From Acidimicrobiia bacterium (GTDB taxonomy: Bacteria > Actinomycetota > Acidimicrobiia > Acidimicrobiales > Aldehydirespiratoraceae): a DNA stretch of 64,000 bases. Positions 62,186 through 64,000 of the stretch are shown piece after piece (the first letter of the stretch is position 1; every line of letters begins with the position of its first letter). Made by a program: the position numbers and the translations under genes. The DNA is taken from contig JAJEEV010000027.1 of the NCBI GenBank assembly GCA_022820805.1, forward strand, positions 1-64,000, written 5' to 3'. The notes under the pieces were generated by a model that worked only from the letters and a program-made list of their open reading frames with translations, was not told the DNA's origin and did not search any database.

Positions 62186-63226
62186 ATGACCGATGCGTCG
62201 GAGATGCTCGAGGTCGCGTCCGCGGACCCGGACACCGTCCGGGACGTCTTCGCGCAGCGCGGCTGGGGCGACGGTCTCCCGCTGGTGGCCCCCACCGCCG
62301 AGCGGGTCGACGACATGCTGGCCGGATCCGCCCGAGACCCCGATGAAGTGATCGCGGTGCTGCCCCCTCGGTCGGGCATGGCCACCCGAAGGATCATCGC
62401 GGTCAACGCGGTTCTGGCCGGTTGCCGCCCCGAGCACCTGGGTGTTCTCGTCGCCGCGGTGCGGGCCCTGGCCCGCCCCGAGGTCAACCTGCGGGGCGTC
62501 AACGCCACCACCCATCCGGTGGCGCCGATGCTGGTCGTGCACGGCGAGGTCGCCCGCACCGCGGGCTACAACGCCGGGCTCGGAGCCTTCGGCCCGGGCA
62601 ACGTGGCCAACGCGGCCACCGGCCGGGCCCTCCGCCTGATCCTGCTGCACGTCGCGGGCGCGGTCCCCGGAGCCGGCGACGCCTCCACCCAGGGCGGACC
62701 GGCCAAGTACGCCTACTGCGTGGCCGAGAACCTGGACGAGTCGCCCTGGGGCGGCTACGCCGCCAGCGTCGGGGTGGACGCGCCGTCGGCGGTGACCGTC
62801 CACTGCGGGGAGGCCCCCCACAACGTGCACGACATGGAGGCGAGCGGGCCTGCGCCGATCCTCGACAAGGTCGCGTCGGCCATGACGTCGCTGGGCTCCA
62901 ACAACGCGCCGGTCAGCAGCGGCGAGTTCTTCGTGATGCTGTGCCCCGAGCACGCCGCCGCCTGCGCGGCCGCGGGATGGACCCGCAGCCATGTGGCGTC
63001 CTACATCCACGAGCGGGCCCGCATCAGAGCCGGCGACCTCCGGGCCGCATTCGCGCTCAGGGCCTGGGCGCCCTGGCAGGAGGCCCTGCCCGACGACTCG
63101 GCGATGCCGGTCACCGAGCATCCCGCCAACATCAGAATCGTCGTGGTCGGGGGTCCCGGCAAGCACAGCTCGGTCATCCCCAGCTGGGGCATGACCTCCA
63201 GCGCCACGGTGCCGGTGGAGCACTAG
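62186..63226 (+). CDS. Uncharacterised 'WGDGLP' protein upstream of the UGSC selenoprotein
   Basis: 346 aa from ATG 62186. Recognisable only by its conserved start (FAQRGWGDGLPLVAPTAERV) and core motifs NLRGVNATTHPVAPMLVVHG and GALRLILL-like helices; ends VVVGGPGKHSSVIPSWGMTS. Such proteins tend to accompany UGSC-family genes, but I know no function. One Cys-poor domain, no signal peptide. It is 18 bp before the selenoprotein start, so co-transcribed. The 170 bp upstream (62016-62185) hold only the divergent promoter region and a weak TTTCA-N5-TGAAA palindrome. Confidence 0.7.
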   Translation: MTDASEMLEVASADPDTVRDVFAQRGWGDGLPLVAPTAERVDDMLAGSARDPDEVIAVLPPRSGMATRRIIAVNAVLAGCRPEHLGVLVAAVRALARPEVNLRGVNATTHPVAPMLVVHGEVARTAGYNAGLGAFGPGNVANAATGRALRLILLHVAGAVPGAGDASTQGGPAKYAYCVAENLDESPWGGYAASVGVDAPSAVTVHCGEAPHNVHDMEASGPAPILDKVASAMTSLGSNNAPVSSGEFFVMLCPEHAAACAAAGWTRSHVASYIHERARIRAGDLRAAFALRAWAPWQEALPDDSAMPVTEHPANIRIVVVGGPGKHSSVIPSWGMTSSATVPVEH

Positions 63227-63244
63227 ACGCAGGAGGAACCGAAC

Positions 63245-63763
63245 ATGGAGGTCTACGCCCCCGACGGAGCAGTCGGAGCTGCGCCCACCGGCCTGGCCCC
63301 GGGCGCCGGAGTCCTGGCCGGCAAGCGGATCGGGGTACTCGACAACTCCAAGCCGAACGCGGGGCTGCTGCTGGGGCGCATGGCGGAGCGGCTCGCAGCC
63401 CGCACCGGAGCCGGCGTGGGGGTGGTGGAGCGCAAGAACGCAGCCCTGCCCGCTCCCGACGACGTGCTGGCCCGGCTGGCGGAGGCGCAGGTCGTGCTGA
63501 CCGGCTCAGCCGATTGAGGCAGTTGCACGTCGTGGAGTGTCCACGACTCCGTCAGCCTCGAAGCCGCCGGGATTCCCACCGTCCTGGTGGCCACCACCGC
63601 CTTCGAGGCCCTCGCATCTGAGGTGGCCGCCACCCTGGGAGTGCCCGATACCAGGATCGTGTCCGTCGACCACCCGCTGGGCGGCACCGACGAGGCCAGC
63701 GTCATCGATCGGGCCGACCGGGCCGTGGAGCGGACCCTGCTTCTGCTGACCGGGTCGGCATGA
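63245..63763 (+). CDS. UGSC-family selenoprotein (in-frame UGA = Sec91)
   Basis: 172 aa if UGA at 63515-63517 is read as selenocysteine; otherwise only 90 aa. ATG 63245 follows CAGGAGGAACCGAAC. KRIGVLDNSKPNAGLLLGRM is followed at residues 90-103 by D-U-GSCTSWSVHDSV; then VSLEAAGIPTVLVATTAFE and HPLGGTD run in the same frame to TGA at 63761. The U-G-S-C redox-like motif names the family, in which Cys versions also occur. A SECIS-like hairpin follows the UGA. Activity is unknown. Sec insertion needs SelA/SelB/SelC, which must be elsewhere in the genome. Confidence 0.88.
63515..63559 (+). promoter_or_regulatory. Bacterial SECIS-like element in the selenoprotein mRNA
   Basis: Directly after the UGA, GTCGTGGA (63529-63536) and TCCACGAC (63540-63547) make a perfect 8-bp stem with a GTG triloop at 63537-63539. 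A lower stem GAGGC/GCCTC joins 63516-63520 with 63555-63559. The first loop base is G and sits 19 nt beyond the UGA, within the 16-37 nt window usual for bacterial SECIS. The element lies within coding sequence, as expected in bacteria. Confidence 0.82.
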
Positions 63764-63800: not shown

Positions 63801-64000
63801 GTGAGCGAACGGCTGGTCGTCGGGGTGCTCTACCCGGGGGACTTCAACGACGACTTCGAAGGGCACCTGGCGGAGTTGGCGGCGATCGACCCGAGGATCG
63901 AGATCGTCGCCGAGCCCTACGTCGAGCCGTCCGAACTCCGCTCCCAGCGGGGAGTTCCTCCCTACGACAACGCGCGCGGCCTCGCTCCCCCGCTCACGCC
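63801..64000 (+). CDS. Truncated gene, hydroxyacid-dehydrogenase-like N-terminus
   Basis: GTG 63801 opens SERLVVGVLYPGDFNDDFEG and the frame stays open to the window edge (66 codons). The N-terminus resembles D-isomer-specific 2-hydroxyacid dehydrogenases, but the NAD motif is beyond the window, so the assignment is tentative. A 14-codon frame (ATG 63760, ending ACCGDSSL then TGA 63802-63804) overlaps both the selenoprotein stop and this GTG and may only be a translational coupler. Confidence 0.45.
   Translation, partial: MSERLVVGVLYPGDFNDDFEGHLAELAAIDPRIEIVAEPYVEPSELRSQRGVPPYDNARGLAPPLT

Follow-up and report, generated by a model that had tools for sequence, protein, structure and literature searches.

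A UGSC-family selenoprotein of an actinobacterium with a probable partner protein and a suggested kinship to the selenocysteine domain of GrdB/PrdB

Introduction

D-proline and glycine reductases combine a selenocysteine (Sec) protein with a subunit that bears a carbonyl group; in proline reductase, substrate binding falls to that subunit (PMC9908766). A comparable two-protein layout is found in the fluoroacetate reductase FarB/FarE, whose components are homologues of GrdB and GrdE, and FarB has been predicted to attack the C-F bond via its Sec (PMC10838667). The UGSC family, known since 2008 and already recognised as a family of selenoproteins, ranked among the most abundant selenoprotein families in an ocean survey, with 255 Sec members and a reported fusion to a domain named Unknown_1 (PMC2398784). 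It also features in PMC9312934 and PMC13188914, has been called likely thioredoxin-like (PMC2398784; PMC13188914), and has its own model at NCBI (NF041046). The functions of such selenoprotein families are, according to a review, largely uncharacterised (PMC13188914).

Here we describe a further member of the UGSC family, encoded in an Acidimicrobiales-related genome within a window (the whole stretch of DNA that was analysed) of 64,000 nucleotides. The bacterium is a relative of common water and soil actinobacteria. The gene shares with the described family (PF24696, NF041046; PMC2398784) the UGSC motif, the Sec/Cys column and a near full-length match over the cut-offs; it differs in nothing essential and is one of three divergent copies in the genome. 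Relative to the literature, the predicted fold, the alignment with GrdB/PrdB and the constant partner seem to be new: among the papers listed by our searches, no title or displayed abstract connects UGSC with GrdB or with the partner, and the texts of three of them mention both UGSC and GrdB/PrdB.

Results and discussion

The features of the locus are collected in Table 1. The UGSC frame opens with an ATG at 63245 and, beyond an in-frame TGA, runs on for 81 sense codons to a stop TGA at 63761-63763, so that the product reads D-U-GSCTSWSVHD across the UGA, just as the initial annotation of this DNA had it. The family assignment made there for the 172-aa product held as well: the read-through product matches the Pfam UGSC family over nearly its whole length (E 6.2e-45, cut-off 25 bits) and exceeds the NCBIfam cut-off of 125 bits. 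An alignment of 36 members, in which Sec is written as Cys, shows residues 91, 92 and 94 to be invariant, together with D101, G109, H143 and P144, the last four of which lie C-terminal of the UGA.

Table 1. Features of the UGSC locus (window coordinates)
Feature	Position	Strand	Evidence or remark
Partner protein gene, 346 aa, GWGDGLP motif; stops 18 nt before UGSC start	62186..63226	+	No Pfam/NCBIfam family
AGGAGG ribosome-binding-like site 5′ of UGSC start	63231..63236	+	Sequence
UGSC-family selenoprotein gene (predicted), 172 aa, Sec at residue 91	63245..63763	+	PF24696 153.8 bits; NF041046 130.5 bits
UGA codon, predicted to be decoded as selenocysteine, codon 91	63515..63517	+	Same column UGA 38, Cys 9, uncovered 1 (48 loci)
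Lower stem of the initial annotation, GAGGC 63516-63520 with GCCTC 63555-63559	63516..63559	+	Present here; poorly conserved in relatives
SECIS-like hairpin, 8-bp stem 63529-63536/63540-63547, loop GTG 63537-63539	63529..63547	+	Both-side changes at 4/8 pairs
D-2-hydroxyacid dehydrogenase gene start, 343 aa, runs past window end	63801..64000	+	L023 3802-4833; PF02826 7.7e-48

A Sec or Cys had been expected at the motif position, and the corresponding column of 48 loci holds UGA or a Cys codon in all but the one locus where it is uncovered (Table 1). These loci comprise the three of this genome, 29 further best matches and 16 from 13 genomes, 12 of which were picked for lacking selA, which raises the Cys share. 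Homologues do not end at the UGA; family sequence lies beyond it in 38 of the 48. A wider set of Cys-type loci was obtained by scanning with the pattern [GA]x[AG]DCGSC[TS][SA] in Cys codons; the best 80 of the 194 obtained have record titles that name actinobacteria, proteobacteria, Myxococcota, haloarchaea, Archaeoglobi and others, and, being Cys by construction, were kept out of the Sec/Cys counts. Three of them (L086, L092, L093) are metagenome-assembled genome records titled Bifidobacterium breve that are probably mislabelled, their UGSC and partner genes resembling those of the window's order. A family tree with 75 rows, of which 28 were hand-picked from the 80 Cys-type loci and the rest were 47 of the 48, requires at least 7 changes between Sec and Cys, in a short search that left many branches weak. 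The genome holds two UGSC genes beyond that of the window; each of the three has one UGA and its own partner gene, and they sit in three different parts of the tree.

A search of the genome for selA, selB, selC (tRNA-Sec) and selD recovered every one: selA and selB lie side by side on contig 46, whereas contig 44 has selD and contig 25 tRNA-Sec, with anticodon TCA. The selD gene (L025 3234-4259, + strand; G000 contig 44) has an in-frame UGA of its own, giving GAGUGCK with the Sec at residue 11 of the stretch read; selenophosphate synthetase is therefore probably itself a selenoprotein here. Among 298 genomes of the order, UGSC occurs in 150 and selA in 179 (six genomes with matches worse than E 1e-20 being set aside as not selA). 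Both are present in 138, UGSC only in 12, selA only in 41 and neither in 107, a co-occurrence with a Fisher p of 2.8e-32, uncorrected for relatedness. Of the 12, five genomes that are 93-100% complete (G053, G155, G180, G246 and G255) yielded neither selA nor selB above the cut-off, nor a tRNA-Sec, the best matches to the latter being tRNA-Ser; their UGSC copies are all without the stop and have Cys where read. Another genome with UGSC and without selA (G018) yielded a fragment only. A UGA-type UGSC without detected selA or selB over the cut-off was found in six genomes (G001, G063, G170, G197, G242 and G261). Four of these are 78-90% complete, and G242 (96%) and G261 (94%) both have tRNA-Sec; assembly gaps would therefore be the likeliest reason for the missing selA. 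One genome with selA, selB and tRNA-Sec (G127) carries one Sec copy and one Cys copy of UGSC.

The initial annotation had described a two-part hairpin after the UGA. Its upper part stood: the stem is a perfect 8-bp inverted repeat that begins 11 nt past the UGA, with the GTG loop at 19 nt, and it is conserved with compensation. All 8 pairs form in 30 of the 38 UGA members and at least 7 in 36 of them; the nine Cys members form 1-5 of the 8 pairs. At the window hairpin the observed pairing was equalled in 2 of 2000 synonymous reshufflings. Tested member by member, pairing was better than in synonymous reshufflings (P<0.05) for 28 of the 38 UGA members and for no Cys member (0 of 9); the other 10 UGA members singly pair no better at P 0.05. 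Moreover, AGT encodes the loop serine in 37 of the 38 UGA members but in 0 of 9 Cys members. This codon is locally rare, occurring once among the 109 Ser codons of four neighbouring genes. The exception is L076, with a UGA, only 4 of 8 stem pairs and no AGT. Bases change on both sides at half of the upper-stem pairs, the plainest compensation being between codons 97 and 99: in 7 members TGG (Trp) at the former goes with GTC at the latter, and in 31 members a third-position C at the former goes with a third-position G at the latter. Both stems together give a covariation score of 0.210, which none of 500 shuffled versions reaches (0.106); the best slid version attains 0.158. The shuffles take no account of relatedness among members. 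Two of the five covariation measures are less clear, pairs with changes on both sides being matched in 18 of 500 shuffles and further pair types in 121 of 500.

The lower part fared less well: 58.4% of its cells are paired against 95.9% in the upper stem, and it was dropped as part of the conserved element. Taken over the whole region, folding energy is unremarkable (mean z -0.55 in UGA members, -0.40 in Cys members) and does not tell the two groups apart; the stem alone does. A hairpin model (R1) run against the genome ranks its three UGSC genes top, by construction since all three were among the training sequences, and the next match has E 0.008. The upper stem combines a G in the apical loop with a conserved, compensating stem past the UGA, as is characteristic of SelB-dependent selenoproteins. 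Comparison supports the view that SelB and tRNA-Sec, aided by the hairpin at 63529-63547, would insert Sec at the UGA at 63515-63517.

That the UGA is instead a real stop, leaving a truncated UGSC gene and a downstream frame open by chance in GC-rich DNA, is extremely improbable. Neither the open frame nor the hairpin is above chance when taken alone, since at least 81 open codons follow the TGA in 78 of 241 TGA-ended frames of at least 90 codons in this GC-rich window, and 4 perfect 8-bp/3-nt hairpins occur in the 64 kb against 3.55 expected; moreover, six relatives have UGA copies without detected selA. A real stop is nevertheless contradicted by the four invariant residues past the UGA, by the recurrence of UGA at the same codon, by the compensation in the stem and by the sel machinery of the genome. 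The gene stands above chance because the Pfam match spans the UGA, because the pairing occurs at this very place and because it is conserved within the family. The window gene almost certainly encodes a true UGSC-family selenoprotein, as first proposed, and is supported in this by the sel genes and by homologues that continue past the UGA.

The UGSC gene is preceded by a gene for a 346-aa protein (Table 1). Relatives of this protein or of its two counterparts in the same genome were found in 42 of the 48 loci, with about 1.5 kb examined on each side; over that distance none was found in the other 6, among them the UGSC loci of G242 and G261 (L029 and L066). In the Cys-type set (best 80 of 194, up to 6 kb each side) a partner relative was found in 78 loci and not in 2; among the 78, that of L157 is a weak match (E 1.6e-4) and that of L124 lies about 5 kb away. 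Members of the partner family are of about 350 aa, and 48 aligned partners share as invariant, among others, D29, G30, P32, C80, T109, N142, R147, E181 and H256. None of the 48 could be assigned to a Pfam or NCBIfam family, the listed matches being scattered and none better than E 0.014. By sequence, neither a single UGSC or partner protein nor the partner profile matched anything in the PDB. By fold, the predicted partner model (pLDDT 86) has fumarate hydratases as its top PDB matches (best E 0.011, TM to query at most 0.28), which are not significant.

In 10 of the 48 loci the Sec is preceded by IEALAD. All eight partners of this subtype whose N-terminus is covered carry a fused CxxC domain; for the remaining two the contig breaks off before that point. 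The motif and one weak TraF match (E 0.008) suggest that this domain is thioredoxin-like. From gene adjacency we infer that UGSC quite probably forms a complex with its partner; that it is a selenoprotein with a functional partner, irrespective of the reaction, we propose with high confidence.

Among 83 loci the commonest neighbours are zinc alcohol dehydrogenases (33), short-chain dehydrogenases (30), IclR regulators (24), two clusters of Amidohydrolase_2 proteins (24 and 16) and substrate-binding proteins (18), the clusters being formed by single linkage and named from one representative each. Not all lie on the UGSC strand; the IclR regulators and the second amidohydrolase cluster are mostly off it. 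Taken together, these neighbours suggest the catabolism of an organic compound. In the 21 window-type relatives, viewed up to 6 kb each side, Amidohydrolase_2 is near 14 and a 2-hydroxyacid dehydrogenase near 4. A Rieske oxygenase gene lies near the window UGSC gene and is the one hint encountered of the aerobic life that the initial annotation supposed. A link to quaternary amines, raised by the MttB, Rieske and dimethylglycine-dehydrogenase-like genes beside it, was rejected, these genes being near 0 of the 21 window-type relatives within 6 kb on each side, or less at contig ends.

The predicted model of UGSC (pLDDT 93) is built of five strands with helices in alternation, and Sec91 lies right before helix 92-107; the strand and helix order of thioredoxin-like proteins is not found in it. 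Its PDB matches by fold are all weak among those listed (50 of 1694), with TM to query of at most 0.50; flavodoxins, azoreductases and receiver domains occur among them and no thioredoxin-fold entry is named. By sequence, the UGSC profile gave one chance match in the PDB (E 0.94). The model suggests a flavodoxin/Rossmann-like fold rather than the published thioredoxin-like one, and this seems to be new. It also bears on the role suggested for UGSC in the literature, that of a general thiol/selenol oxidoreductase or peroxidase of thioredoxin-like fold, which we consider improbable: the UxxC motif and the published assignments speak for it, and the predicted strand order, the weak listed matches free of thioredoxin folds, the frequent partner and the catabolic neighbours speak against it.

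Kinship was instead suggested with GrdB/PrdB. In hhalign, UGSC against 17 GrdB/PrdB-type proteins gave E 1.8e-5 and a probability of 78%, with Sec over Sec; one GrdB alone gave 38.5% (E 3.3e-4) and four control comparisons 0.1-1.4%. Similar E-x-x-G-I-P stretches lie past the Sec in both groups. Weak matches to GrdB-type NCBIfam models, below the cut-offs (TIGR01917 22.6 of 602.2 bits, TIGR01918 18.1 of 65.45), were obtained for up to 16 of 36 UGSC members, and GRDB is absent among the 13 Pfam families matched by any of the 36. UGSC is probably homologous to the Sec domain of GrdB/PrdB, the Sec subunit of glycine/sarcosine/betaine and D-proline reductases (PF07355, TIGR01918, TIGR04483), the 78% being suggestive rather than firm. 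Unlike these subunits, UGSC is a single short domain of 172 aa that falls below their cut-offs, and no kinship of its partner with a GrdE-type protein was detected. A GrdE-type identity of the partner was rejected on a profile comparison with one GrdE-type protein (probability 0.4%), which also matches the FarE model. The likeness to FarB/FarE lies in the two-protein layout and in a Sec proposed to attack a polarised carbon bond (PMC10838667); as far as this comparison reaches, the partner differs.

By analogy with these systems, UGSC would most likely supply the Sec nucleophile of a catabolic reductase made of two proteins, the second subunit most likely being, as gene adjacency suggests, the 346-aa protein encoded upstream. 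Sec91, lying before the helix after the third strand of the predicted Rossmann/flavodoxin-like domain, would attack a substrate that the partner binds and polarises. The intermediate would be resolved by Cys94 as a selenenyl sulfide, and a dithiol, in one subfamily perhaps that of the CxxC domain fused to the partner, would re-reduce it. This would amount to GrdB/PrdB-like chemistry inside a catabolic operon, and the redox function that the initial annotation had left general may be narrowed to that of a GrdB/PrdB-like Sec domain with a constant partner. Reductive cleavage of a bond by UGSC and its partner has, in our judgement, somewhat less than an even chance of being correct. Slightly more tentative still is the suggestion that the two proteins might form a widespread third GrdB/PrdB-type branch, a Sec/Cys-dependent two-protein reductase in catabolic operons of actinobacteria, proteobacteria and archaea, in which the partner replaces GrdE/PrdA and one branch has a built-in thioredoxin-like domain.

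The Sec/Cys pair might also serve a non-redox role, for example by binding a metal or, in a lyase or hydrolase reaction carried out jointly with the partner, by forming a covalent adduct. The frequent neighbours would suit this, being dehydrogenases, amidohydrolases and substrate-binding proteins with no known reductase subunits among them, as would the non-significant resemblance of the partner model to fumarate hydratases; yet Sec is rarely used for non-redox work and one subfamily has the fused CxxC domain, so that we regard such a role as unlikely, less so than the thioredoxin-like oxidoreductase. The constant partner, the alternative fold and the link to glycine and proline reductases make the function of UGSC testable via its Cys versions, which need no selenium machinery.

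Proteins closer to GrdB and PrdB were also encountered. A second type of selenoprotein in the same genome is a PrdB-like protein with UPLC (L171 796-1950, - strand; G000 contig 44). All 17 short PrdB-like matches read have an in-frame UGA giving U-P-x-C (18 in total including that of this genome; L176 left out). In another genome of the order (G009), genes for a GrdE-type protein and a full-length GrdB-type protein with an in-frame UGA adjoin (L211 6407-8800, + strand), followed by a gene that we take to be GrdC-like.
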